This document shows positions 22,919 to 43,492 of a DNA stretch of 43,737 nucleotides, in pieces. Positions within the stretch are counted from its first letter, which is position 1, and each line of letters opens with the position of its first letter. A model generated the notes under the pieces. That model worked only from the letters and a program-made list of their open reading frames with translations. It did no database searches and had not been told where the DNA came from. The translations under genes and the position numbers were made by a program. This DNA comes from a virus: positions 1 through 43,737 of IMG/VR virus record IMGVR_UViG_3300010354_000172; one strand, given 5' to 3'.

Positions 22919-22926
22919 TATTTATC
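22919..22926 (-). promoter_or_regulatory. Late-type promoter GATAAATA
   Basis: NATAAATA motif overlapping the stop codon of the giant gp7-like gene, 35 nt upstream of the fibre-like gene start at 22884. Confidence 0.5.
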
Positions 22927-25900
22927 CCGTGTAATTATCAAACTTTAATCTATTGGTTCTCAAAATATAATCAGATGTATTTATTCCAACCAATCCATAT
23001 TTTGCATAAGATGTAAAAGTATTAATTCCAACTCTTGGCGAAGTGTTAACCTTACCCCAACTAAAGTCACCATAATAACTTAGTACTGTGTAGACCAAAA
23101 TATTTTCATTTGCCAAGTCTATTGCAGATTTTTTATCAAAGGTTATGGTTGTCAAATCAAAAGTATCTAAAGTTGATGAGAAGTTTGTTTGTCCAGCACC
23201 AGAAACTCTAACAGTAACTCTATTAACATAAGTAAGTCCGACACCAGTAACTTCAGTTTGTAATATGTTAGATTCATATACCTGATACAAACCGTCTACA
23301 AAATTTGTAGAAATGCCAATAACTGAATCATCATTTCCATAACTAAATCTTTCTTTTCCGGAAGAAATTCCAAAATTAGATTTATTGATGACGAAGAAAT
23401 CTCCAGTAGAAATGCCACTTACAGTAACAGCAACTCCTGTAATTGTTGACGATCTTAGATGTGAATTTGATGGAATATGGAAATCAAGAATCATTTTATC
23501 CATTGAAACTACACTAGTTCCAATTCCAACATCAAATCCATTTGTAAAGGCAACTCCTACTATAATTCCAGAATCTCCAGAATACGTAGAAACTCCAATA
23601 ATTTCTTGAGTTGTAGTTGGTGGTGAAATTAAGACTGCAGGAGGGTTGGTGTTTGTATATCCAACTCCAGGACTTACAACTTGAATGTTGGTGATTATTC
23701 CATCAGAAGAAATTACAGGGTTTGCTGTTGCTCTTGTTGTACCAATTCCAACTGGATAGTCAATAACAACCTGACAAGTTGTATAACCAACTCCACCATC
23801 CGAAATAACAATACTTGTAATTGTTCCTGCTGCTGAAACAACTGCTGTAGCAGCTGCGGCAACTTTTGTTTGTTGGGAAACTATTGTAATTTTGTTCTGA
23901 TGTTCTAGATTTTCACCTTCATTTTGTGGGAAGAAGAAGGGACGAACGTTTTCCACATAAATCGTGGTTGAACCAATTCCCAAAGATGTAATTATATTTG
24001 TTGTTGGGAAAACACTGGGTTCATAAGATTCTCTATCTTTTGTTATAACTTTATTTTCTATAATTAAGTCTTCAGTTTGTTTGCAGAGTGTAACAGCTCT
24101 GAGAACTTCACTATCTTCAATTAATCCAGGGCCATAATAAACGTTTGTATCAACTGAACTTGAAGAATTAATATCAGTAATTACTCTTTTATCCTGCTGT
24201 AAGAAACTCTTTTGATTTAAAGAATCTCTATAGTTAAGAGTTAATGTATCTCCAGGTTGAACTACATTTGTAACTTCTTTTGGTAGAATATCAATTCCAC
24301 TTGTTCCTTTATAGAAGAAGAACTTCAGGTTATCATCTTTTCTTGGTGCTTCCTTAAATGTAATTGTGCTTCCACCTTTAAAGGTATAAGAAACACCAGG
24401 AACTTGTAAAACATCATTGATAAAGATTACAACTACGTCTTCAACTTTCACCAGAGAACCATACTTAGATTGAATTGAAACTGGAACTCCTGAACGAGTA
24501 ATTGGGAATGCTTTTCTAACTCCATCAAAAAGACTTGAGAAATTATCTAGGACTTCAAGCTCACCAATAGACCAAGCTGAGAATAAATCAGTTTGAACTT
24601 CTTGAACTTCAAGTTGAAATTCTCTGAAGTTTGCACTGGATGTTGTTGGAATTCCAGTCAGCCCTCCAGATGGTATAGTCAAAGTATGATTTACACCATA
24701 TCCATAACCCAAATCTACTAGTGAAAATGCAATTACACTTGAACCTTGACCAACTGTTATATCAACTTTTGCTTGAGTTCCACCTCCACCTAGACTACTT
24801 TGACTGTAGATCAATGGAATATTTGAATATGGAAGAGGAGCATCGATTATAACGTATGGTGGATTGTTCTGACTAAATCCAGAACCTGGATTTGTAACTG
24901 CAATGCTTACAATATGACCATTACTGACCACAGCGGTTCCAATAAATTGAAGATTTGGAGTTCCTACGGTTGACGATGCGACTGCAACACGAACTGTTTG
25001 AACACCTACTCTATATCCAGAACCACTATTGCCGATGCTTACGGAGGAAATTGTTCCTGCAATTGAAACAACCGCAGTGCCACCAGCACTTACAAGAGGT
25101 TGATAACCAAATCCCATTGTTGACCCAACAGATACAATAATTCCTCCTGTGGGTAAACTCAGAGCATTTGGATCGTATGATTGTGCGCTAGGAGTTCCGG
25201 TAAATGTAATCGATGTAATTCCAGATACTTCACTTAATGTATAATCATAGTTTAATCCTTTACCCTGAACAATATTGTTAATCAGAATAAATGCATTATT
25301 TGTTGCAATACCAACAACATCAGAACCTCCTGATTTCAGAGTATATGTGTTGCGACTTGCGGTAAAGTTCTGAGATATATCATCAAAAATGTAATTTTTT
25401 GCATATGCTTCTTCTGTTCCATTTTTAGCACCTGAATGCATGAAAACTCTTCCGCTGAAACTTGAAGAAGTAGTAATACCTTCCCAATCTCTAAATGGAA
25501 CTGGATCTGTTATAGAGCCAATTGGATTTCTTCCGGGAGGTGGGTCCGCAAAGGTAATGATATTTTCTACAATATTGTAATTACCAGAAATTCTTGTTAT
25601 CTTTGCTCCAGTGTCGTGTCCAGCAAGAACCGTTCCCATTTCAGCACGTGCAACTTGAATTGCATTAGTAGATCCAATTCCCACACCAATAATTTTCATA
25701 ATTTCATTGTCAACTTTTATAAGATTCCCACTAAAGAATGAAGTAATTCCCGTAAAATAGATTAAATCTTGTGTTATTGGCGCTTCAGCTGCAAGTGATG
25801 ATGTTACTGAAGTTGCAACAATTGGAGACTGCACTAAATTATCAAGAGAAATCAATACTTTTTGATTTTGTTTTTTCGAAACTATGCTATGCGATGTTCC

Positions 25901-28900
25901 TATTCCAACTGAAGTTAGATTAATAGGTACAGGAATATCTTTAAGTGCATTCTCAGGAGAGGCTGCAAATTTAATTTTAGACTCGTCAACTTTAATAATG
26001 AATACGGAAGAGGGTAACTTACTTGTAGTGCCTATACCAATAACAGAAGTTACTGCAATACCAATATTGTTAGTACCAATTCCAGTTTTTGGATAGTACG
26101 ATACTTCTTCTCCACTAACGAAGAAATGATTTGGAATGAAAACTGTATTATTTTCCAAATCAACTACAGAAGAACTGGAACCATCAAATACTCTCTTAAA
26201 TATTGAATATCCCTTATAAGAAAGATTAAAGTCTCTCTTAACATCAACCTCAGTTCCTCTATAGAATGAAGTATTACTCTTAATACTCGCAGTTGCCAAA
26301 TCAATATTTGAGCCGATATTAATTACATCTATTCCAATTCCATGAACTAATGATTTTATTTTTGCATTATATGTTGATGCCCTTGTAAATGTTAGTTCAA
26401 CATTCGAACCAACTATTCTTGCGTTTATTGTACCTAAGTCAGTTCCAGAAGTATTAACAACCCCATATTCCGAAATGTAAGCGTTTGATGAATCCCAAAG
26501 AACTACGACTTCTGATAGTTGATACTTATTATTGTCAATATCGGATATTTGTACAATACAATAAGCCGCTTCATAATCTATAGGAATCGAGACTATTGTT
26601 TGCTCTGTTGAAGGTAAAGAACTTGGAAGTGATTTATCTTGTGCGGTTATAATTCCATTAGATAAGTAATTGGTTGCACCAACACCAGTGTTTTCTGCAG
26701 TATATGATTCGGAAGAAATTGCAACAACAACTGAACTAACTTTAGCAGTAGTAACTCCAGAACTTGCACTAAGTTTATAGTCAACAACAATGTCTGAACC
26801 ACTTAAGTAAGGATAAAAAGTTCCTAATCCAGATGCTGAGAATGGATCTGATAATGTGTGCAAACTTAATTGTCCAAAATCAATAACATGAACGTCTGTT
26901 CCATCATGAATTAAATTAATTTCATTAAATTCACTTACACTTTGAGACTCATTACTTTCAATGACTGTTAAAATCTTTGCAGATCTTGTTCCAGATGTAG
27001 TTGTGTTAATTCCAGAGAGTCTTAGAATTGTTTCTGTTACACCAGAATTAACAAATACATTTGAAGATGCAATGCTTACCAATGAACCAGTACTTCCTGT
27101 TGAAATACCTAAATTCAAAACACCAGATGCAGTCTCAGAATCTGTTAAAATTTGTTCTATATCATAAGATACAAATGTAACATTATAATTGTTAAATCTA
27201 AATTTTGTAGGATAAAATCTCAAATAACCTATATTTTCGACAATTTCATAATCAAATGATCCTAAATCAAGTTGACTTTCAACTCTACCATATTGATTTA
27301 AAACAGTAATTAATCTTGCAGGGTCGCTTAAAACATTGACAATAGAAACCTGTCTTTCTCCAGTAAATAATCTATCTCTAACGTATGCAATATATCTCGT
27401 TGCTCTACTTTCTAAAATGCTAGTGCCATCGACAATGTTATATGGAGTTTGTCTTCCCGCGCTATTAAATTCACTACTTATATCATCTATTCGTAAAACA
27501 CGATTAGAGATATTTTCATCATAATCCTTAAGAATACTAGAATAGAAATTAATTTCATCAGAAAATGCAACTTCACTATTTGTTAAGTAATTTTCAAATG
27601 CTAAATCAATATCAGACACGCAATTTAAATCATATTCACTGTCAATTGAAATATACGCAGTTACAATAGGTGTAATTTCTGGAACAAGACTTTGTGTATG
27701 AGTTGATTCAACTTGCAAATCACTGAATTTTTTAAATCCTGCAGTATGAGTTAATGTGCTAACAATATCATTCCACTTGTCATAATAAACTTTAGATTTA
27801 ATTGCATAAGAGAAATTTTGATAATACTCGTTATCGTGAAGTCTTTGAGAAGAATCATTTAAGAAACCTGTTGCATATTCCCATCCATTGTCAACGACAG
27901 AATAGTAATCTGTTTTATATGATGAATCAAATGAAAAAATATTTTTAATTCTACCTGTAGCACCAGTTGCATTAGATCTGATGAGATTTCCTACATGGAA
28001 TTCATCAGAACTCTCTACAATCAAATATTTGTTTTTAGCATCAAATTCAAAAACAGTTCCTGATGCAACACCATCAGATACAACATCTAATTTTCTAAAT
28101 TCCTGAGCTTTTAATTCAGGTTTAAAAGTTGGGAAAAATCTTTCAGGAACTATTGTTGCTGATGAATTACCACTATCAAAGTTTCCAGGATATTCACCAG
28201 GATTAAGATACTCAGATAATGAATATGTTACAATTCCTATTCCACCAGTGTTTTTGAAAACTTTAGTTACTTTGAAAAGTTGATAATCGTAATTGGATGA
28301 GTTGTAACCTGTTCCAGTCGATCCAACACCAACACTTACACCTTCAACTAAAATTCTATCGTTTACTGAGATTGGGAAAGACTCTGCTTCCGAATATGAA
28401 TTTTTTAATGTAGCGGTTACTTCACCTGTTGATGAATTGTAACTCAGGTTTGATACCTTAATTCCATTTGAATTTTGTACGGGTATAATTTTTGGTACTT
28501 GATTTGATATTGAAAAAGTATTTTTAACGATCTCAATAACTGGTTTACTATACTGCTCTTCAAGTTTTTCTGGTGTTTTTGTCCAGTCAGAACTTGCAAA
28601 TCTAATGTCAATATCAGGTACTATTTTATTTGTAATAGAATCAATAACAACTAATTTTGGTGGAATTGGGTATGGTTGTCCAAAAGATGTAAGTCCAACA
28701 AAGTTTAATCCATTTAACAATTCAATTTGTAGAACCTGGGGTATTTTAACCGATGGTCTTAAAGTTAAATCTGAAGAGTAATCGAATCCAATATTTTCTA
28801 TTGAAGTTCTTTTAATTCTTCCTATTGAATTACTATATGCCTCTAAGATTGCTTCTGTGCCATTAGAAGACGCAATTCTAACTATACTTGGAACTTTCGT

Positions 28901-31900
28901 ATAACCTTTTCCTTTATCATTTAATAAAATTTTATCAATAGCGCCAGATGCGCTTTGTGATGATGTTGTGTACTTTATCACTGAATTTGAGGTTGAATAT
29001 GAATCTGCCTCTGGGTAAGATTTTAAAGTATAATTAAATGTATTATTTGAAGATACTTTTATCTCATATTCACCATTATACTTACTTGATTCAATTAGAA
29101 TTTGATTATTGAAATCTACACTCTCATCTATTGATATTCGCTTGTTAATTTCCGGATTATCTGTAACATTTAATGGTAATAATCTATAATAAAGAACTTT
29201 AGGAGTTCCTTGATTAACCTTTACAGTGACTGAAGCATTGGTGGAAACTCCAATGATACCATTTCTTGTTACTTCAAATTCTGATGTTTTTTGTAAAGAT
29301 TGATATTCATTCAAATAATTTTTATCAGTATAAATTACAAATTTAAAAGCAGGATATCTAACACCACTTTGGATGTATGATAGTGAATTGTGAGATACAT
29401 CAAAAATAAGTGTAGAATTTTTATAAGCTTTTACTGGTGGATTCACTTGGTATAAAGTGCCAAATGAAGATGATTTAATGTCAACAACTTGGGGAATTTT
29501 TTGTAGAGACTCATACTTGATATTTGTAAGTTTTATTTTGTTTTTGTCTACAACGTGAACAAAATATTCCTTTTCGTTCTCAAGACCACCAGATGAAGAA
29601 TCTGAAATATGAATTACTTTTTGCCCAGAAACTAACCCATGATTTTGAATATAAATTGTATTATTTAAAATATCTACAGAACTAGAGGTAAAATTAAGAC
29701 CATTGACTATTAATTTTTTATGATTATTATCGTAACGTACAGAAATAGATGTTGTTGACGCTGGATTTACATCAATAAAAACTGAATCAAAATTAGACAA
29801 ATTATGAGTGCTAGCAGTTGCAACTGTTACTAAATTTTTAGTTACTGTTCCAGTAACTACATTTGGATAGTTTGTTCTAAAACTATGATTGACTCCTCTT
29901 CCAACTCCAGTAAAGTACAATAAACCACAATGACTTGTTGAAGCTGCAGCACCAACGAATTGACCAGTAGTTCCTAATCCAACTTTAACGCTAGATATTC
30001 CTATAAAATCTTCAGATAATTTAGCAACATAAAGAGATGAAAAACTTGATAGTGCAATTGAAGAACCACCACCAACGGTTGATATTCCGATTGAGTCTTC
30101 ACTATTTGAATAATTAGGATAATATGTTAATTCATCACCGGTGAGTAATCCATGATTAGGTATATAAATTGATCTGGTTGGAATAAAAACTTGAGTTTGT
30201 CCTGCGCCTGGATTAGAAATGTTAATTGTTATTCCAATTCCAGTGCTAGCATCACTTCCAATACCAATCGATTCTTCAGGATTAAAGTAATATTCTCTAT
30301 TAACTGATGGTGTTAAATTAGTTTGAACACCCGTTCTAATTGTAAATCTTCTAGAATTATTTTTTATTTTTGTTCCAGGTGGGAATCTATATGTATTAGC
30401 ATCCGTTCTTAAAACTTTTATTCTGGACGACTTGGAATCTATATTTAAAACTTTTACGTTTTCAACATTTGCTGCTTGGCTAGTGGCAGGTCCACCATCA
30501 TCTGGATTTTTAAATTCATTTGAACCAAACACTCTTGTAACCATTAAGATATCGCTTAGTGGTCCAATAACTCCATTACCATCAACGTCATGGTAAGCAG
30601 TTCCACCCATGGTATGGAGTCCAATAAAACTTCTTATCGAACTGCTAGTATTTCTAGTTGCATTATTTGGGAACTTAATGTTATGAATTAAATTATCACC
30701 GGAAAATCCAAAATAGTATCTAATTAAAACAGTCGTATCATTTACCGATACAATACCATCACCATCCACATCAAATGCATCATATTTGTCCCAACACCAA
30801 TTGTATATGTCAGCATCATTTTTTCTAATAGCATTAGACGGAAGTGCTTTAGATGTGATGGCTGTTCCTACTTGAGGTGAAAGTTGTCTAAATGGTTGCC
30901 CATAGTTAAAATCTCCATATAACGTTAAAATATCATTTTCTTTAATATTTGGAAACTGCAGAGAATCAATAGACCCTGACACATTAATAAAGGTTACAAT
31001 TCCTGTTGTAGATGCATAATCTAACTGTTTAGTGAGCGTTAATTCTGCAGTTGTTACTCCTACAGAATAAGAACCTTCAAATAAAGAAGAAGAAGAAGTT
31101 GAGAGGCCAGAAATATTGATAAAATCACTATCTTTTAGATTATGTGCTGAGGCAGAAATTGCAAGAATTTGTCGCTCAGATTCTGGATAAAATTCAACAT
31201 TACTAATTTCTAACGATTCAACACTAATTGTTCCTACTCCAACTCCAAGAATTCTTGATACTTTAGCCTTAGCATCAAATCCGTTCGTTGGGTCAGATTC
31301 AAAAATTACACGGTCATTTACCTTATAATTTTTTCCACCTGTAATTATTCCAATAGAGTCTACAGTTCCTTTTTCAACATACCTTACAATACTGTCTTGA
31401 TTTGTGTATTTGTACGATTCGTTAATATATTCATATGAACTATTCTTTTTAGTAATTCCATAAGGATAAACATTTCTTATCCAATTAGTTTTATTCAAAT
31501 CTATTTCATCTTGATTTGATTTAATTTTGAAATTAAAGTCGTTTGGTTTTGATTTGTAATTTTTTCCTATTAAGTATGGAAAAGATGGTTTTTTGAAGTT
31601 CTTAAATAAACCATCCGATGATGCAATCAAATCAAATGTTGCAAAATATGCATACACTCCATTTGGATAATCAGGAGTGACGCAGAACCTTCCATTATTT
31701 TCATCCAAATAAGATTCATCTGTTGAATCTGCCCAAGTAAAATCTTCAACAAAGAATTCCTCAGGGAACTCACTTAAAGGAGGTCTATTTGGTTTTAAGT
31801 CTAAACTATATCCAGATTTTAATTGAATAATTGATCCGCCATTTTTATTCGAATATCCAAATGGACCATAAATTGGGTTTCCATCATATGCCCATCCAAT

Positions 31901-34900
31901 TATCGGTGAGTGATTGACGCTATTTGTTTCAACATCATTGAATTTGGTAATATCAAATTTTCCATATACTGGATTTCCAAATTGGTCGATTGAGTTCAAT
32001 GAACTTCTTAAACTTCTAGGTGCGTACATGTACGCACATTGCAGTTCATATGATGAATTTAAAGATTTTGTAATAAAAGTATCATCATCACTTATATTTG
32101 AAAAATTCTTTTTATATTGATTAATTCTCCACGATTGTAGATTAACTTTAAACTGTGCTCCAGTTCCTGGGGTTTCTACACTTATTATCGTTGTTTGTTG
32201 CTTATAACCAAATCCACCATTATTAATTCTTACTGCGATTATTTTTCCATCAGAAATAACTGGAATTAAATTAGCACCTTCACCATCACCCATAACTACT
32301 AGTTTTGGTGGTGCATTATACTGTTTTCCTCCAGATAAGACAACTACTTCTACAATTTCTCCATTTTGAACTATTGCTGAAAGTTCGGATGAAGTTCCGG
32401 AGAGTAATGTTACTTCTGGACTTCTATCGAAATTAATAATGTTAGATACGCCATATCCTACACCATTATCTTTTAAATTAACTGTTATAATTGAACCTCT
32501 AACTACTGGTTCTACTTGTGCTTTATATGTATTATTTGCAATTGATGATAATCCAACTTTTCCTATGATTTCTACTGTAATATCTGGATAGTTAAACGAA
32601 TGCGTTCCGGCTCCAGAAGTTTTTAGTTCAACATATTGCCCAGTCTTTAAGTAAAAATCTTTATTGGTAATTCCGACACCAACTAAAGACAACTTAAAAT
32701 TATTTTTATCAACTTTTGTTACATAATACTCATCCGAAGTGTTAATTCCAGAAATAGGAGTTTGATCAAATGAATATTTGACAATCTCACCAGTTTCAAA
32801 TCCATGATTTTCGATTGATATAGTATCAATGGCAGTATTAATTCCAATAGGTGAACAAACAACTTTCTTGTTAGTATATCCCTCACCTGGATTTACTATT
32901 TGAATATTGTTAAGTATTGCTTTTCCATTTAGAGAGCAAATTGCATGTCTTCCACTACCATAATCTTCCAAAGATACAGTATTAATTCCAACTGCAGAAT
33001 CTTCAAAAGATTTATGTAGTGTTACGGTATAATCATCAACCACAGAAACATAATAGATTGAATTAGTGTTTATTCCTGATATTGCGGTGTTTCCAAAAGT
33101 TTTGTAAGAAACTCTTTCCGAATTTCTAAATTTATGTTGGGTGGAAAATCCAATTGTCGATACTTCTGAACCTAGTCCAACATTATCAGAACTATCTGCA
33201 TTGAAAAGAACCTCATGAGGTATAACTCTCAATTTAGCTTCGGCTACTGCCCCTCTTCCATTTCCACCACTAATCTTTACTGTGGGAACTTCAAGGTAAT
33301 CAAATCCAGGATTTGTAATAAGAATATCTTGAAAAGATCCAGTGACACCACAAAATCCCGTTGCGCCAGAACCAACAGGGTCTGAGATATTTAAAATTGG
33401 TGGATTAATCACATCATAATTTTTTCCACCAGAAACTACATCAATAGAATTAATTGAACCATAATAAACTCTATCGTCAGACTTATAATTAAGTAATTCA
33501 ACACCATTCACTAAAATGCCAGTAAATCCAGATTGTGTTTCATAAATCTTATTATCATCGACTGGATTTGCAATTTCTCGCAATAATTTTTGTGGTTGAA
33601 TTATCTTTGAATTAAATTCATACCTCTCAAGACAATTATTTGTGATTAAAATTTGCCCAAAAGACTCACCTACGCGGACATAAATTTCTTTATAAAGATT
33701 TGGTCTACTTTTTGCAAATTTTACAGTATTTTCATCAACTCTCCTTATAAAATAAAGGCCTTCAGAAAAAAGAGAACTAAGTACATTTCCATTTTCATCT
33801 TTTTCTGGAGTGTAATAGACTGCATCTCCATTGAAAAAATTATGATCAAATTTGTCAGTTATTTTAAAAGTTTCATCTCCACCAGAAAATCTTCCAGAAA
33901 AAATTATTTTTTGATTTCTTGGATTTATTCTTAAATTTGAAAATGATGGTAAAGAAGAAGAAGCAACTAAAACTCTATCTTCATCTATATAAGTGTTTTG
34001 TACACTGGACGAGTACTTATTCAGGTACGGATAGAAAGATGAGTTTACTTTTGTGATTATTCTTCTTACTTTTTGAACTTTATCTGGACTTGAAATACTT
34101 GGTCCTTTAATCGTAAGAGTTTTACTGTTGTAAACTGCTGTTACATCAAACTCCCCACTTATAGAGTTTCCATCAAATAATATTAAAGATAATTTATCTC
34201 CTGCTAATAAAATATTTTCATCTTTAGTTGTTAATCTAAAAATATTATTTTCTGGGTCAATTAAAACTAAAGATTCTATCTCATAAGACTGTGATGTATT
34301 AAAAATCCAATTATTTTGTTTAGGATTATTACCAACTTTTCCAGAGGAAATAATTTTTATTCTAGAACCTCTTTTCTGCCCGTATGTTCTGTCTGGTATT
34401 TTTAATTCATTTAAGACGGATCTAATTTTTACTCTTATACCATCAGTAGTCCCAGCACCAGCAGCATATGCAAAAGTATTTTGGTCTATTTCAGTCTTGT
34501 CTAAAATTGGTTTTTCAATACCAATTACATCTAAAAATTGATTATATGTTCTACTTGAATATGTAACTATGCCTATGGTGGAATCATTATATGCAAATGT
34601 TAATGTTCCCGAATTGGGAAATCCAATTGTTGAATCGACATCTAAAAATGTTTGACCAATTCCAACGTTGCCAATTACTTTTGTTTTGGCATGTGATGAA
34701 AAATTATCATAAAGTAGTTCGGTATTTGTTCCTTCTTTTTTGATAGTAGAACCGTCAACACTGATTTTATAATATCTGTCTGTTAATAGACCTACAGATA
34801 CACTTTCGACGTTAGAAACTGGCGCATATGCCTTAGGAATATTTTCAAAAACATCTTGATATAGTGTTTTATTGACCAAATCAAATGGATTTCCAGAAAC

Positions 34901-35629
34901 TGATTCTACAATTAAATCTTTTGTCTTTCTGAAATTTGCATTTGATGGTGAAATTATATAATCTTTTGGCTTAATAATGTCAACAGTCTCACCATAGAGA
35001 GCCTTGAACAGAATCTTAAATGATACGTCTGTTCCTCTGGTAGAATAAAAATCTTTAGAATGTTGTATAAATTGCTGCTCATTTAAAGGAGAAGTTAACT
35101 CTCTATTTTGGAATCCAGGTAGAATTTGCGATTTTATCTTATTTAAAAACTGCTGTAAAAATAAAACGCTAAGATTTTCTACCTTTGAACCATTGGTATG
35201 AGAATCTGCAAGAGATGTTGAAAAAACTAAATCTTCTGGATTTTCAGAATTTCTAAACGAAGTTATTCCACTGAAACCTCTAGTGCAGTTTACAAACGAA
35301 ACACTTGTTTTGGATTGATATGTAATAATTTCATCATTGATTTTTATCAAACCATAATTTTCTGGAAATCCACTTGTATTGGCAACTTGTACAGTTGTGG
35401 AATCAATTTCCAAGTCTGAAGAAAGAGTCGTTGAATCAATCGTGTTACCACAGTTAGATAATTTAATATAAGAATCTATATTCTGAATTAAATCAAGAGG
35501 AGCACCTTGAAACTCTTGACCCAGATAGTAACTTTTTAAAAATTCACCAATAAGAGGAAAGTCCTCTTGTACGTAAAGAGGTAATTGATTGGTAACAACC
35601 TTGTTGAATTGAACTCTTTTCTTCGTCAT
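22922..35629 (-). CDS. Giant gp7-like baseplate wedge protein, 4235 aa
   Basis: A 12.7-kb gene directly after gp6 (4-nt gap), in the position of T4 gene 7. Residues about 188-218 (FIQHSKDFYSTRGTDVSFKILFKALYGETVDI) match the FYSTKGIEASYKFLFKVLYNEEVEI region near the T4 gp7 C-terminus, so the N-terminal 220 residues look like the gp7 core. The rest is a chain of accessory modules: a DSTTVQV...EIITY module near residue 75, GxGYT-type repeats, a YHYH domain near 1240-1300 (GWAYDGNPIYGPFGYS), a dockerin-like EF-hand pair near 1610-1710 and a FINDVLQVPGVSYTF module near 3730. T4 gp7 is 1032 residues. It is probably a baseplate component and could present adhesive or fibre-attachment domains. No frame break is apparent. 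Confidence 0.8.
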   Translation of the reverse strand: MTKKRVQFNKVVTNQLPLYVQEDFPLIGEFLKSYYLGQEFQGAPLDLIQNIDSYIKLSNCGNTIDSTTLSSDLEIDSTTVQVANTSGFPENYGLIKINDEIITYQSKTSVSFVNCTRGFSGITSFRNSENPEDLVFSTSLADSHTNGSKVENLSVLFLQQFLNKIKSQILPGFQNRELTSPLNEQQFIQHSKDFYSTRGTDVSFKILFKALYGETVDIIKPKDYIISPSNANFRKTKDLIVESVSGNPFDLVNKTLYQDVFENIPKAYAPVSNVESVSVGLLTDRYYKISVDGSTIKKEGTNTELLYDNFSSHAKTKVIGNVGIGQTFLDVDSTIGFPNSGTLTFAYNDSTIGIVTYSSRTYNQFLDVIGIEKPILDKTEIDQNTFAYAAGAGTTDGIRVKIRSVLNELKIPDRTYGQKRGSRIKIISSGKVGNNPKQNNWIFNTSQSYEIESLVLIDPENNIFRLTTKDENILLAGDKLSLILFDGNSISGEFDVTAVYNSKTLTIKGPSISSPDKVQKVRRIITKVNSSFYPYLNKYSSSVQNTYIDEDRVLVASSSLPSFSNLRINPRNQKIIFSGRFSGGDETFKITDKFDHNFFNGDAVYYTPEKDENGNVLSSLFSEGLYFIRRVDENTVKFAKSRPNLYKEIYVRVGESFGQILITNNCLERYEFNSKIIQPQKLLREIANPVDDNKIYETQSGFTGILVNGVELLNYKSDDRVYYGSINSIDVVSGGKNYDVINPPILNISDPVGSGATGFCGVTGSFQDILITNPGFDYLEVPTVKISGGNGRGAVAEAKLRVIPHEVLFNADSSDNVGLGSEVSTIGFSTQHKFRNSERVSYKTFGNTAISGINTNSIYYVSVVDDYTVTLHKSFEDSAVGINTVSLEDYGSGRHAICSLNGKAILNNIQIVNPGEGYTNKKVVCSPIGINTAIDTISIENHGFETGEIVKYSFDQTPISGINTSDEYYVTKVDKNNFKLSLVGVGITNKDFYLKTGQYVELKTSGAGTHSFNYPDITVEIIGKVGLSSIANNTYKAQVEPVVRGSIITVNLKDNGVGYGVSNIINFDRSPEVTLLSGTSSELSAIVQNGEIVEVVVLSGGKQYNAPPKLVVMGDGEGANLIPVISDGKIIAVRINNGGFGYKQQTTIISVETPGTGAQFKVNLQSWRINQYKKNFSNISDDDTFITKSLNSSYELQCAYMYAPRSLRSSLNSIDQFGNPVYGKFDITKFNDVETNSVNHSPIIGWAYDGNPIYGPFGYSNKNGGSIIQLKSGYSLDLKPNRPPLSEFPEEFFVEDFTWADSTDESYLDENNGRFCVTPDYPNGVYAYFATFDLIASSDGLFKNFKKPSFPYLIGKNYKSKPNDFNFKIKSNQDEIDLNKTNWIRNVYPYGITKKNSSYEYINESYKYTNQDSIVRYVEKGTVDSIGIITGGKNYKVNDRVIFESDPTNGFDAKAKVSRILGVGVGTISVESLEISNVEFYPESERQILAISASAHNLKDSDFINISGLSTSSSSLFEGSYSVGVTTAELTLTKQLDYASTTGIVTFINVSGSIDSLQFPNIKENDILTLYGDFNYGQPFRQLSPQVGTAITSKALPSNAIRKNDADIYNWCWDKYDAFDVDGDGIVSVNDTTVLIRYYFGFSGDNLIHNIKFPNNATRNTSSSIRSFIGLHTMGGTAYHDVDGNGVIGPLSDILMVTRVFGSNEFKNPDDGGPATSQAANVENVKVLNIDSKSSRIKVLRTDANTYRFPPGTKIKNNSRRFTIRTGVQTNLTPSVNREYYFNPEESIGIGSDASTGIGITINISNPGAGQTQVFIPTRSIYIPNHGLLTGDELTYYPNYSNSEDSIGISTVGGGSSIALSSFSSLYVAKLSEDFIGISSVKVGLGTTGQFVGAAASTSHCGLLYFTGVGRGVNHSFRTNYPNVVTGTVTKNLVTVATASTHNLSNFDSVFIDVNPASTTSISVRYDNNHKKLIVNGLNFTSSSVDILNNTIYIQNHGLVSGQKVIHISDSSSGGLENEKEYFVHVVDKNKIKLTNIKYESLQKIPQVVDIKSSSFGTLYQVNPPVKAYKNSTLIFDVSHNSLSYIQSGVRYPAFKFVIYTDKNYLNEYQSLQKTSEFEVTRNGIIGVSTNASVTVKVNQGTPKVLYYRLLPLNVTDNPEINKRISIDESVDFNNQILIESSKYNGEYEIKVSSNNTFNYTLKSYPEADSYSTSNSVIKYTTSSQSASGAIDKILLNDKGKGYTKVPSIVRIASSNGTEAILEAYSNSIGRIKRTSIENIGFDYSSDLTLRPSVKIPQVLQIELLNGLNFVGLTSFGQPYPIPPKLVVIDSITNKIVPDIDIRFASSDWTKTPEKLEEQYSKPVIEIVKNTFSISNQVPKIIPVQNSNGIKVSNLSYNSSTGEVTATLKNSYSEAESFPISVNDRILVEGVSVGVGSTGTGYNSSNYDYQLFKVTKVFKNTGGIGIVTYSLSEYLNPGEYPGNFDSGNSSATIVPERFFPTFKPELKAQEFRKLDVVSDGVASGTVFEFDAKNKYLIVESSDEFHVGNLIRSNATGATGRIKNIFSFDSSYKTDYYSVVDNGWEYATGFLNDSSQRLHDNEYYQNFSYAIKSKVYYDKWNDIVSTLTHTAGFKKFSDLQVESTHTQSLVPEITPIVTAYISIDSEYDLNCVSDIDLAFENYLTNSEVAFSDEINFYSSILKDYDENISNRVLRIDDISSEFNSAGRQTPYNIVDGTSILESRATRYIAYVRDRLFTGERQVSIVNVLSDPARLITVLNQYGRVESQLDLGSFDYEIVENIGYLRFYPTKFRFNNYNVTFVSYDIEQILTDSETASGVLNLGISTGSTGSLVSIASSNVFVNSGVTETILRLSGINTTTSGTRSAKILTVIESNESQSVSEFNEINLIHDGTDVHVIDFGQLSLHTLSDPFSASGLGTFYPYLSGSDIVVDYKLSASSGVTTAKVSSVVVAISSESYTAENTGVGATNYLSNGIITAQDKSLPSSLPSTEQTIVSIPIDYEAAYCIVQISDIDNNKYQLSEVVVLWDSSNAYISEYGVVNTSGTDLGTINARIVGSNVELTFTRASTYNAKIKSLVHGIGIDVINIGSNIDLATASIKSNTSFYRGTEVDVKRDFNLSYKGYSIFKRVFDGSSSSVVDLENNTVFIPNHFFVSGEEVSYYPKTGIGTNNIGIAVTSVIGIGTTSKLPSSVFIIKVDESKIKFAASPENALKDIPVPINLTSVGIGTSHSIVSKKQNQKVLISLDNLVQSPIVATSVTSSLAAEAPITQDLIYFTGITSFFSGNLIKVDNEIMKIIGVGIGSTNAIQVARAEMGTVLAGHDTGAKITRISGNYNIVENIITFADPPPGRNPIGSITDPVPFRDWEGITTSSSFSGRVFMHSGAKNGTEEAYAKNYIFDDISQNFTASRNTYTLKSGGSDVVGIATNNAFILINNIVQGKGLNYDYTLSEVSGITSITFTGTPSAQSYDPNALSLPTGGIIVSVGSTMGFGYQPLVSAGGTAVVSIAGTISSVSIGNSGSGYRVGVQTVRVAVASSTVGTPNLQFIGTAVVSNGHIVSIAVTNPGSGFSQNNPPYVIIDAPLPYSNIPLIYSQSSLGGGGTQAKVDITVGQGSSVIAFSLVDLGYGYGVNHTLTIPSGGLTGIPTTSSANFREFQLEVQEVQTDLFSAWSIGELEVLDNFSSLFDGVRKAFPITRSGVPVSIQSKYGSLVKVEDVVVIFINDVLQVPGVSYTFKGGSTITFKEAPRKDDNLKFFFYKGTSGIDILPKEVTNVVQPGDTLTLNYRDSLNQKSFLQQDKRVITDINSSSSVDTNVYYGPGLIEDSEVLRAVTLCKQTEDLIIENKVITKDRESYEPSVFPTTNIITSLGIGSTTIYVENVRPFFFPQNEGENLEHQNKITIVSQQTKVAAAATAVVSAAGTITSIVISDGGVGYTTCQVVIDYPVGIGTTRATANPVISSDGIITNIQVVSPGVGYTNTNPPAVLISPPTTTQEIIGVSTYSGDSGIIVGVAFTNGFDVGIGTSVVSMDKMILDFHIPSNSHLRSSTITGVAVTVSGISTGDFFVINKSNFGISSGKERFSYGNDDSVIGISTNFVDGLYQVYESNILQTEVTGVGLTYVNRVTVRVSGAGQTNFSSTLDTFDLTTITFDKKSAIDLANENILVYTVLSYYGDFSWGKVNTSPRVGINTFTSYAKYGLVGINTSDYILRTNRLKFDNYTG

Positions 35630-38018: not shown

Positions 38019-38270
38019 CTAAAATTCTTTCAATGGAATGGGTTCCGTACCATAACTCCAGTCATCATAGTCCTCATCATTGCGTATTTTTTGATGAATT
38101 TCGTTCTGATGAAAAAAATCGTGTTTTTTGGGCGTTAAGTCATCATTCGCAATCTCACGAAGCATTTTTTTAGACTGAACTTTAGAATCCCAACCATATT
38201 CACTTGACAAATACTGAGTTCCCCACTCATTTTTCATGAAATTTTCATCTTTATCGACTTGTTTGGTCAT
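38019..38270 (-). CDS. Hypothetical acidic protein, 83 aa
   Basis: A highly charged protein (MTKQVDKDENFMKNEWGTQYLSSEYGWDSKVQSKKMLREI, then HDFFHQNEIHQKIRNDEDYDDWSYGTEPIPLKEF) rich in Asp, Glu, Trp and Tyr and with no Cys. It overlaps the upstream 231-residue gene by 20 nt, supporting co-translation. No domain is recognised. Its place directly before gp25 suggests a late or assembly-related role, but that is only context. Confidence 0.7.
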   Translation of the reverse strand: MTKQVDKDENFMKNEWGTQYLSSEYGWDSKVQSKKMLREIANDDLTPKKHDFFHQNEIHQKIRNDEDYDDWSYGTEPIPLKEF

Positions 38271-38946
38271 TTTGTGCTCCTGATTCGTTAAAATCAGAAC
38301 TTTTTACGGGGTTGCTATCCCGAATTTTGGTAATTTCATACATAAAATCGTCTGATGTTTCAATTTTTCGACGATTTTCGACTGAATATTCGGTTAAATC
38401 GATTTCATACCCTGGATTTTTGGTAATTCTATTCCTAGTCCACGCATCATCGTACCATAAAATCTTATTATTTGGGTATGCATAGAAATTTCCATTATCC
38501 ATCTTGAAAAAGTGAGCACATTTATGCTCTGGAGTCTCACTAAAATTAGTATTCAGAGTTGATTTTGACTCCCATGACCAATCAAGAGTGAACATGTATG
38601 TACCTTCATTCTTTTCTCCACGGTAATTGATGAGTTCAGCACGTAAGTTAGCCAATCTTGAACGAACTTGAACATCAATATAAGGTGAAAAACAATCCCA
38701 CCACATACACTCTTCTAACTCAGGTACTGGTGCATCAGGTTTCCAACAAAAGGCATGAATTGGTCTACGAGTCCAGTTCACTCCATTCTCTAGAAACGCT
38801 TCAAAGAGGGGCACATGCTTCTCTAAGGACGCTACAGAGTGTACATCGCATAAAGTTACCTCTCCATGCCCTTTTTTATGATTATACAAGAACTCATTGC
38901 GAATATAACAAGTAATCGTGGGAAGATTATGATTTAGATATGCCAT
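38251..38946 (-). CDS. Conserved hypothetical protein, 231 aa
   Basis: A soluble protein rich in Trp, His and Cys (FCWKPDAPVPELEECMWWDCFSPYIDVQVRSRLANLRAELINYRGEKNEGTYMFTLDWSWE). There is no signal or membrane segment. The C-terminus (DDFMYEITKIRDSN) is helical and charged. It resembles conserved unknown proteins located upstream of gene 25 in marine T4-like phages, but I cannot name a function. An intrinsic terminator ends the preceding transcript only about 10 nt before its ATG, so its own promoter is not obvious; readthrough may supply it. Confidence 0.72.
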   Translation of the reverse strand: MAYLNHNLPTITCYIRNEFLYNHKKGHGEVTLCDVHSVASLEKHVPLFEAFLENGVNWTRRPIHAFCWKPDAPVPELEECMWWDCFSPYIDVQVRSRLANLRAELINYRGEKNEGTYMFTLDWSWESKSTLNTNFSETPEHKCAHFFKMDNGNFYAYPNNKILWYDDAWTRNRITKNPGYEIDLTEYSVENRRKIETSDDFMYEITKIRDSNPVKSSDFNESGAQNDQTSR

Positions 38947-41323: not shown

Positions 41324-41352
41324 ACTATAGGGACACTTTAGAGGATCCAAGT
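41324..41352 (-). repeat. 29-bp intergenic element, copy A
   Basis: One of four copies of a 29-bp sequence. On the plus strand it starts ACTATAGGGACA and ends GAGGATCCAAGT, with one mismatch to the consensus (A for T at position 6). It lies between the stop of the 57-residue gene and the start of the DUF7249-type gene. Confidence 0.9.
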
Positions 41353-41361
41353 AACAGTTAC

Positions 41362-41535
41362 TCACCAACGGTCAGGTGTACTCAAATCCTCAACGTATGA
41401 TTCACACTTTTCTGCGGGTTCCAGTTTGAATAACTTTTCCCAGTCAATCTGATGCGGGTCGAAGTCACTGAATACATCAAGCTCCAGAGTGACTCTATAA
41501 CGCTGCTTCTGTGCTTGTTGATAAGCAACTGACAT
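41362..41535 (-). CDS. Hypothetical protein, 57 aa
   Basis: MSVAYQQAQKQRYRVTLELD, then VFSDFDPHQIDWEKLFKLEPAEKCESYVEDLSTPDRW. I chose the ATG at 41535 because GGAGAG sits 4 nt before it, the clearest ribosome binding site in this block; the frame extends further upstream, but into the promoter. The pattern YRVTLELDVFSDFDPHQIDWEKLFKLE is a beta strand then an amphipathic helix. A sigma70-type promoter lies at 41564-41592. Function unknown. Confidence 0.75.
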   Translation of the reverse strand: MSVAYQQAQKQRYRVTLELDVFSDFDPHQIDWEKLFKLEPAEKCESYVEDLSTPDRW

Positions 41536-41563: not shown

Positions 41564-41592
41564 ATTGTAAGATGCTGGGGAATTTCTGTCAA
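41564..41592 (-). promoter_or_regulatory. Sigma70-type promoter
   Basis: On the minus strand TTGACA (41587-41592), 17-nt spacer, TACAAT (41564-41569). Perfect -35 and 5 of 6 at -10, 28 nt upstream of the ATG at 41535. It probably drives the 57-residue gene and the DUF7249-type and 62-residue genes after it. Confidence 0.85.
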
Positions 41593-41612: not shown

Positions 41613-41705
41613 GGGGTCGGTGTACTTTTGTGAGGGATGTGTGGGGTTTTGAGAACGCGGGGGTACTTGACATTTGTGCGGGGTTGTGATAGCTTGCAGG
41701 CAAAG

Positions 41706-41797
41706 ATCACAAGACTCTGACACATTTATAAGAGTCTAAATCACAAGACTCTGACACATTTATAAGAGTCTAAATCACAAGACTCTGACACATTTAT
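41706..41797. repeat. 34-bp tandem repeat with internal inverted repeat
   Basis: Two full identical copies (41706-41739, 41740-41773) and a third truncated after 24 identical bases (41774-41797). Each full unit contains AGACTCT, a 12-nt loop and AGAGTCT, so each can form a 7-bp hairpin. On the minus strand the loop includes TATAAATG. No coding frame uses the array. Confidence 0.95.
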
Positions 41798-41891
41798 CAG
41801 CACACTTTTCCACAGATTAAACATACTTTTCCACAACATTGTTGAAAACTCAGCTATATTTTTTAATACATTTTTAATCGTTTTTTAATAC
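41706..41891. other. Candidate replication origin
   Basis: In order: the 34-bp iterated repeats (41706-41797), two exact TTTTCCACA boxes at 41806-41814 and 41827-41835 (the DnaA-box form typical of cyanobacteria), a short dyad around CAACATTGTTG, then three AT-rich 11-mers in tandem (TTTTTTAATAC, ATTTTTAATCG, TTTTTTAATAC at 41859-41891). Iterons, initiator boxes and an AT-rich unwinding stretch in one gene-free region are the layout of a DnaA-type origin. This is inferred from layout only. Confidence 0.45.
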
Positions 41892-41919: not shown

Positions 41920-41949
41920 TAAAAAAAGAGGGGATAACCAGTCCCCTCT
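41920..41949 (-). terminator. Intrinsic terminator
   Basis: On the minus strand AGAGGGGA, a 7-nt loop and TCCCCTCT form a perfect 8-bp GC-rich stem followed by a run of T. It ends the transcript coming from the 42065-43683 gene cluster before the origin-like region. Confidence 0.9.
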
Positions 41950-42064
41950 CGCTTACACTACCCACTTAACCCTTAAGCGAATTATCTACACTCAACCTGG
42001 GTAACTTTACTGAAAAGGTGAGGCAAACCCGTTCCTCAGTGAGTATTAAACAATGATGATAGAT

Positions 42065-42678: not shown

Positions 42679-42707
42679 ACTATTGGGACAGTTTAGAGGA
42701 TCCAAGT
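42679..42707 (-). repeat. 29-bp intergenic element, copy B
   Basis: On the plus strand it starts ACTATTGGGACA and ends GAGGATCCAAGT, with one mismatch (G for C at position 13). It lies between the stop of the 69-residue gene (42713) and the start of the 105-residue gene. Confidence 0.9.
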
Positions 42708-42922: not shown

Positions 42923-42951
42923 ACTATTGGGACACTTTAGAGGATCCAAGT
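42923..42951 (-). repeat. 29-bp intergenic element, copy C
   Basis: Consensus copy. On the plus strand it starts ACTATTGGGACA and ends GAGGATCCAAGT. One end overlaps by a base the stop codon of the 46-residue gene and the other abuts the ATG of the 69-residue gene. Confidence 0.9.
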
Positions 42952-43463: not shown

Positions 43464-43492
43464 ACTATTGGGACACTTTAGAGGATCCATGT
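43464..43492 (-). repeat. 29-bp intergenic element, copy D
   Basis: On the plus strand it starts ACTATTGGGACA and ends GAGGATCCATGT, one mismatch to the consensus. It lies 5 nt after the stop of the 61-residue gene and abuts the ATG of the 76-residue gene. Confidence 0.9.

Follow-up and report, generated by a model that had tools for sequence, protein, structure and literature searches.

Where does a T4-like cyanophage start to copy its DNA, and is a short gene-free stretch in one such phage the place? The replication start of these phages appears to have been little studied in the searchable literature, and a conserved, single-copy, short element would be a direct place to look for it. One candidate lies in a linear IMG/VR virus record of 43,737 bp (the window, by which we mean this whole stretch of DNA), which, searched piece by piece at the DNA level, comes closest to Synechococcus phages (DSL-LC02, S-SM2, and Bellamy among them). 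The original prediction had read part of it as a possible DnaA-type replication origin in a T4-like phage. By PHROG matches, the window carries gp6-, gp25-, and gp8-type baseplate genes, which supports the label T4-like. (Between the gp6- and gp8-type genes, 22922–35629 is a single open reading frame of 4,235 amino acids, and 38251–38946 has a PHROG match to a phage ferredoxin family, phrog_3704.)

What kind of element is this, then? The reading that we favor, and to which we would give an even chance, is that the phage starts replication here in the transcript-primed manner of T4, at an origin that most resembles oriE and whose initiator modules can be exchanged, one of them recruiting host DnaA.

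Anatomy of a gene-free stretch

Between 41536 and 42064, we find no credible gene (the list of open reading frames holds only overlapping, unsupported ones there), and the genes on both flanks all lie on the minus strand. Along the plus strand, in rising coordinates, the order is the minus-strand gene, its promoter, a conserved core, the 34-bp repeats, the boxes, the AT-rich 11-mers, and finally, the terminator of the opposing genes:

41362–41535, minus strand: small conserved gene of 57 amino acids, phrog_12516 (PHROG match, 2e-23), used as the locus marker in relatives
41564–41592, minus strand: divergent sigma70-type promoter of the small gene, TTGACA-N17-TACAAT (11 of 12 consensus matches)
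41667–41695, plus strand: promoter TTGACA-N17-TAGCTT, called from conservation in relatives, with a predicted start at about 41702
41667–41736, plus strand: conserved 72-position core, the promoter plus the AGATCACAAG...ACATTTA leader (profile match, E 2.9e-17)
41706–41739, plus strand: 34-bp repeat 1, with inverted arms AGACTCT/AGAGTCT (repeat analysis)
41740–41773, plus strand: 34-bp repeat 2, an exact copy of repeat 1 (repeat analysis)
41774–41797, plus strand: 34-bp repeat 3, matching over its first 24 bases and 76% over 34 (repeat analysis)
41806–41814, plus strand: DnaA-type box 1, TTTTCCACA (exact word)
41827–41835, plus strand: DnaA-type box 2, TTTTCCACA (exact word), its start 21 bp from that of box 1
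41840–41848, minus strand: inverted third box with one mismatch, TTTTCAACA, often a perfect inverted box in relatives
41859–41869, 41870–41880, and 41881–41891, plus strand: AT-rich 11-mers, with a degenerate fourth to 41902; a candidate DNA-unwinding element, with a similar tract in relatives
41926–41950, minus strand: intrinsic terminator of the opposing minus-strand genes (terminator scan)

All of what had been described here from the letters alone is present as described: the 34-bp repeats (two exact copies and a partial third), the two exact boxes in their 21-bp spacing, the three tandem AT-rich 11-mers, and the gene-free stretch bounded by a terminator. The identification of the box also stands, the match being exact: PMC4674748 gives TTTTCCACA as the cyanobacterial DnaA box, which makes up seven of the eleven repeats of the S. 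elongatus origin and occurs in most cyanobacterial oriCs.

What the original prediction lacked is the plus-strand promoter, which lies just outside the stretch that it had marked. A consensus scan of the window misses this promoter, because its −10 is TAGCTT, a weak hexamer with three of six consensus bases, and this miss counts against reading the element as an origin. We recognize the promoter because many relatives carry −10s nearer to the consensus (TATAAT, TAGAAT, and TACAAT, for example) at the same place. No supported plus-strand gene lies 3' of it in the window, so it is a promoter without a protein to express.

A conserved promoter and phased boxes

How general is this arrangement? 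Relatives were picked through the small neighboring gene, regardless of boxes. IMG/VR holds 365 relatives of that gene by a single query and 452 by an alignment query, and 80 loci were kept from each; 63 of the first 80 were used (the other 17 had <330 bp of upstream DNA) and 61 of the second, which together with six isolate loci and the window itself make 131 regions. A core of the form TTGACA...TGATAGANTGC...AGATCACAAG...ACATTTA adjoins the small gene in 125 of the 131, as counted with a loose regular expression. That is, a conserved TTGACA-N17-TANNNT promoter points into the element in nearly every region. The core was not matched in L082, L089 (S-B05), L090 (P-TIM68), L092 (S-SRM01), L093, and L095; by eye, the core of L082 has diverged, and that of S-SRM01 lies farther from the small gene. 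Judged from sequence, it is the promoter, rather than the boxes, that is the most conserved part of the element. Repeat cores of the ACATTTA type are found in 100 of 107 elements, one to seven per element.

A profile of the core gives a single match in each of S-SM2, SynMITS9220M01, Bellamy, and the IMG/VR record G001, and in the window, it matches the core and, weakly, the repeats after it; since 108 of the sequences counted above built the profile, matches in the records that contributed to it are not independent. A DNA search with the core of a marine contig matched, in some cases weakly, S-CAM9, Sf-FS3, S-8S53, S-8S55, S-8S56, S-PRM1, and the single-cell record AG-345-O18 (all of them but S-8S56 were read). 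In records of Kanaloavirus and S-PRM1, annotated plus-strand genes (2OG-oxygenase or hypothetical) come directly after the core. An ordinary promoter would be placed in the same way, and this too counts against the origin reading.

The boxes need more care. The window holds a third exact TTTTCCACA site outside the element, at 23949, and three sites against 1.09 expected is a number reached or passed in 13 of 100 shuffles. By its count alone, then, the box is no more frequent in the window than chance allows, and we therefore examined whether the arrangement recurs. The exact word occurs in 24 of the 63 regions of the single-query set and, once duplicates are removed, in 37 of 116 distinct homologous regions, compared with a mean of 0.99 regions for permuted words (one permuted word reached 35 regions, presumably by overlapping the box). 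Where same-strand boxes are neighbors, the spacing is exactly 21 bp in 19 of 27 pairs and 42 or 43 bp in another five. Among 107 distinct elements, 35 (about a third) carry the exact word, and these 35 hold 68 exact words vs. 7 of the next variant, TTATCCACA. It is this pairing and recurrence in relatives that lift the arrangement above chance. Two of the expectations attached to the original prediction are thus borne out: box number, 21-bp phase, and place are conserved in many related cyanophages, and the word is rare outside the element (two of the three sites in S-SM2 and four of the six in G001 lie inside it).

The same question can be asked in reverse by starting from the box pair, and loci fetched by that pattern are independent of the core profile. 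An IMG/VR scan for two boxes 21 bp apart, with no other condition, returned at least 120 stretches. Counting a core as near if it lies within 700 bp with E ≤1e-3, 49 of the 120, among the matches listed, have one; 43 of these 49 have the pair on the core's strand, 22 of them 62–209 bp after the core start and 21 of them 80–583 bp before it. The remaining 71 of the matches listed have no core, and many of those that we read resemble other phages. Among 119 bacterial contigs picked out by this 21-bp pattern, none has a core near the pair, none of 50 stretches with the reversed word at 21 bp has a core anywhere, and boxes 26 bp apart occur in only 6 stretches of the whole collection, two of them with the core. 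This reverse test ties the box pair and its two-turn phase to the promoter. Of the elements that we read, the most elaborate is L252, with seven exact boxes around its promoter: five before it (one inverted), two after it (one inverted), and then, the AT-rich tract.

Two side observations concern the box word elsewhere. In L181 (at 8821), L224, and L229 (at 7548), a 21-bp box pair runs right up to a start codon (AAAGTTTTCCACAGGTATTTAAAAATTTTCCACAGGTAAAAAATG), and the genes that follow appear to differ. The 284-kb record G002 has separate TTTTCCACA clusters at 29317–29434 and 239066–239129, perhaps two origin-like elements.

Cassettes exchanged between near-identical flanks

If only a third of the elements carry the host's word, what do the others carry in its place? 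The 107 elements typed by script (distinct, with a core, and with at least 140 bp after it) fall into 35 boxed (type a), 23 e, 14 b, 13 f, 8 c, 3 g, 1 d, two mixtures, and 8 with none. Type b has palindromes like TGATACGAATTCATATCA, and type c has boxes like TTGATTCTCAATAA plus an inverted copy; by eye, both may be Fur/Zur-like. Types e and f show, by eye, repeats every 11 bp, such as AGTAACTCC, AGACACCCC, and AGATACACC. (L055 is type e to the script and reads as type c by eye, and L165 and L169 were assigned to type g by hand before the tree was made.) Exact boxes are thus missing from 72 of the 107 elements, most of which have other motif arrays in the same slot, so host DnaA is not a general requirement. 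The suggestion that the phage recruits host DnaA keeps the support of box identity, phase, and conservation; it does not extend to the family.

The types do not simply follow descent. In a tree of the flank (the small gene plus 125 bp), boxed elements occur in both the freshwater-like and the marine-like groups, types b and c almost only with freshwater-like flanks, and types e, f, and g with marine-like flanks; the sole type e in the freshwater-like group is L055, the one that looks like type c. The tree needs at least 33 type changes, compared with a shuffled mean of 57.2, and on well supported branches alone, the boxed type must have been gained or lost at least 12 times.

Pairs of close relatives show how the change is made. 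The boxed L112 and the type-f L113 are mostly 88–100% identical over the 540 bp that precede the start codon of the small gene (51% in one 60-bp bin), and beyond that codon, they are alike (mostly 88–100%) for 180 bp, 30–56% identical over the next 420 bp, and 88–96% identical over the following 420 bp. For L152 (type e) and L160 (type f), the figures are 86–100% up to 180 bp, 36–73% over 180–480 bp, and 93–100% over 480–780 bp. The replaced block, about 300–420 bp, takes in the cassette, the AT-rich tract, the terminator, and part or all of a gene of ~50 amino acids. It is this repeated swapping between near-identical flanks, together with the other cassettes in two thirds of the elements, that makes the DnaA boxes one optional module.

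Does an initiator gene travel with its cassette? The ~50-aa minus-strand gene adjoins the terminator, about 390–550 bp from the small gene's start codon, in all five loci that we read (L112, L113, L118, L152, and L160), and it is the only gene that the swapped blocks of L112/L113 and L152/L160 hold. By eye, it is a mosaic, with its start common to L152 and L160, its end common to L118 and L160, and three different cassettes among these phages. Because its halves are common to phages of different cassettes, it does not travel with cassette type in these loci, and we rejected it as a linked initiator gene; no phage initiator gene was identified in the blocks read. Other passengers do turn up: plus-strand endonuclease open reading frames (GIY-YIG and HNH) stand right after the cassette in L015 (1659–2672), L079 (1867–2751), and L071 (2136–2675), and similar endonuclease-like starts are seen by eye in other contigs; like the genes in Kanaloavirus and S-PRM1, these fit an ordinary promoter and count against the origin reading. 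L015 is the G001 locus, where the GIY-YIG gene follows the boxes and replaces the AT-rich tract.

What kind of origin, if an origin?

Which known origin does the element resemble? T4 origins are not known to include boxes for host DnaA. T4 oriF and oriG use MotA-dependent middle promoters, whereas the cyanophage element has a full TTGACA at its −35, and its R-loop is proposed by analogy. The likeness is that of a promoter pointed at an AT-rich tract, a candidate unwinding element here, no more than a few hundred base pairs away; PMC3016281 describes oriF and oriG as some 100 bp that combine a promoter with an AT-rich unwinding element, with a transcript R-loop that primes the leading strand. 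According to the same review, oriE depends on an early promoter and has evenly spaced direct repeats that are conserved in the syntenic regions of relatives. The early-type promoter, the direct-repeat cluster, and the syntenic conservation are all here, with 34-bp repeats in the window and ACATTTA-type repeat cores in relatives beside the same gene neighbor. The difference is in the repeats, which are 12 nt in oriE, as opposed to 34 bp in the window and spaced by 11 bp (by eye) in types e and f; nor is repEA or repEB named among the PHROG matches of the neighboring genes.

Two other comparisons remain. Cyanobacterial chromosomal oriCs usually lie beside dnaN, with a skew minimum. The phage element does have the host-type box cluster (two exact boxes and one degenerate in the window) and a promoter and 34-bp repeats besides, but it shows no skew extremum, and its boxes, rather than being kept in all homologous elements, are absent from two thirds of them. 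The exact DnaA-box word with an AT-rich tract nearby remains a trait in common with cyanobacterial oriC (PMC4674748). Iteron plasmid origins also place direct repeats at whole helical turns beside an AT-rich tract; unlike them, the cassettes here swap without a linked gene, and no linked Rep gene was found in the swapped blocks.

Because the anatomy matches that of T4 origins, we propose that replication is primed here by a transcript and assisted by a helper module that can be exchanged. Carrying its housekeeping sigma factor, the host RNA polymerase would start a plus-strand RNA near 41702, against all the surrounding genes, from a promoter recognized by its conservation. The RNA would cross the 34-bp repeats and the box cassette and run into the AT-rich tract, where it would stay hybridized and, by analogy with T4 oriF, prime leading-strand synthesis. 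The cassette would be an accessory module that helps to open the tract or to load the replisome. In the window, the module consists of two host-type DnaA boxes set two helical turns apart and a third that is inverted and degenerate, and for that reason, host DnaA would be its likely binder. The conserved promoter points to the T4 style of starting rather than to a plain DnaA origin.

Two physical properties bear on this unevenly. Ranked by stability, the AT-rich tract falls within the bottom 2 places of S-SM2, the bottom 7 of 9220M01, and the bottom 3 of Bellamy; in the AT-rich window, where 23 places are as unstable, and in G001 (185 places), it does not stand out. The change in GC skew that had been looked for at the element is not there: in four records (three complete isolates and one 205-kb record), skew keeps one direction from end to end and has no extremum at the element. 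This weakens the origin rather than refuting it, because T4 oriA and oriC also lie outside skew shifts (PMC3016281).

Suppose instead that the region is a regulated early promoter or an antisense or leader RNA region, from which a short early RNA or a cargo gene is expressed, with the cassettes as operators and host DnaA as a transcription factor in the type-a alleles. The core does precede the endonuclease genes in some phages and the 2OG-oxygenase or hypothetical genes in Kanaloavirus and S-PRM1, and the window's plus-strand RNA folds better than its shuffles (z −2.64, 1 of 200), via the inverted arms of the 34-bp repeat. That fold is not a family trait, however: consensus folds of cassette types e, b, f, and c come to 0 to −3.3 kcal/mol, nearly unstructured, so RNAs of these four types are unlikely to act as structured RNAs, and Rfam gives nothing near its cut-offs. 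We accordingly set aside a structured RNA family, the window's own RNA being the exception. With no plus-strand gene after the promoter in the window or in most relatives read, with cassettes at variable distances downstream or upstream of the promoter start (62–209 or 80–583 bp), unlike operators, and with the AT-rich tract left without a role, we consider this account unlikely. An account in which the locus is a recombination or homing hotspot, with a strong promoter as its only function and the cassettes as hitch-hiking debris, would explain the inserted endonuclease genes and the frequent block replacement; debris would hardly keep exact boxes in 21-bp phase across the flank tree, in freshwater and marine phages alike, and we regard it as very unlikely.

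Two further accounts put DnaA at the center. One is the plain, oriC-like origin of the original prediction, with host DnaA essential, which fits the box word, its phasing, the AT-rich tract with its 11-mers, and the dense box arrays on both sides of the L252 promoter. Against it stand the elements without an exact box, the exchange of the boxed allele for others between near-identical neighbors, the lack of a skew extremum, and the fact that the promoter is better conserved than the boxes, and we give it little credence. The other is a datA-like decoy: by titrating host DnaA, an array of this sort could stop initiation of the host chromosome at high phage copy, with other cassettes titrating other host proteins. 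An exact word of the high-affinity type, clustered and phased, would suit a decoy, as would the seven boxes packed around the L252 promoter, but two or three type-a sites per genome are few for titration, and the fixed place between promoter and AT-rich tract is left unexplained, which makes the decoy quite improbable to us.

Can the transcript-primed reading be carried from one element to a whole group of phages? We would suggest, as a possibility that we ourselves find rather doubtful, that T4-like cyanophages have a single modular origin. Its fixed parts would be a promoter for host polymerase and an AT-rich tract; between them would sit an initiator module, exchangeable and drawn from at least six families, one of them the exact host DnaA-box pair in two-turn phase, so that phages would switch between host initiators by recombination. 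A T4-type origin is a known kind. We found no description of a constant promoter with exchangeable modules that include host DnaA boxes, and because most subscription papers were outside our search, that absence argues only weakly for novelty. Should the boxed alleles act as we propose, lytic T4-group phages would, unlike T4 itself, be borrowing the chromosomal initiator of the host and swapping in other modules; phage replication would then be linked to the cell-cycle state of the host, which could shape host range and the competition between co-infecting phages. S-SM2 and S-BM3 (boxed) and Bellamy and SynMITS9220M01 (unboxed) offer a ready-made comparison.

One last observation concerns the small genes around the element. 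Four near-exact copies of GGGACANTTTAGAGGATCC lie at small-gene boundaries (41330–41348, 42685–42703, 42929–42947, and 43470–43488), possibly a minus-strand promoter of the middle type or an intergenic signal. A longer form, ACTATAGGGACACTTTAGAGG, allowing up to four mismatches, occurs 11 times in 9220M01, 14 times in G001 (in 10 of its 11 pieces), 6 times in S-SM2, and 0 times in Bellamy, and one exact 25-mer is found in AG-345-O18.
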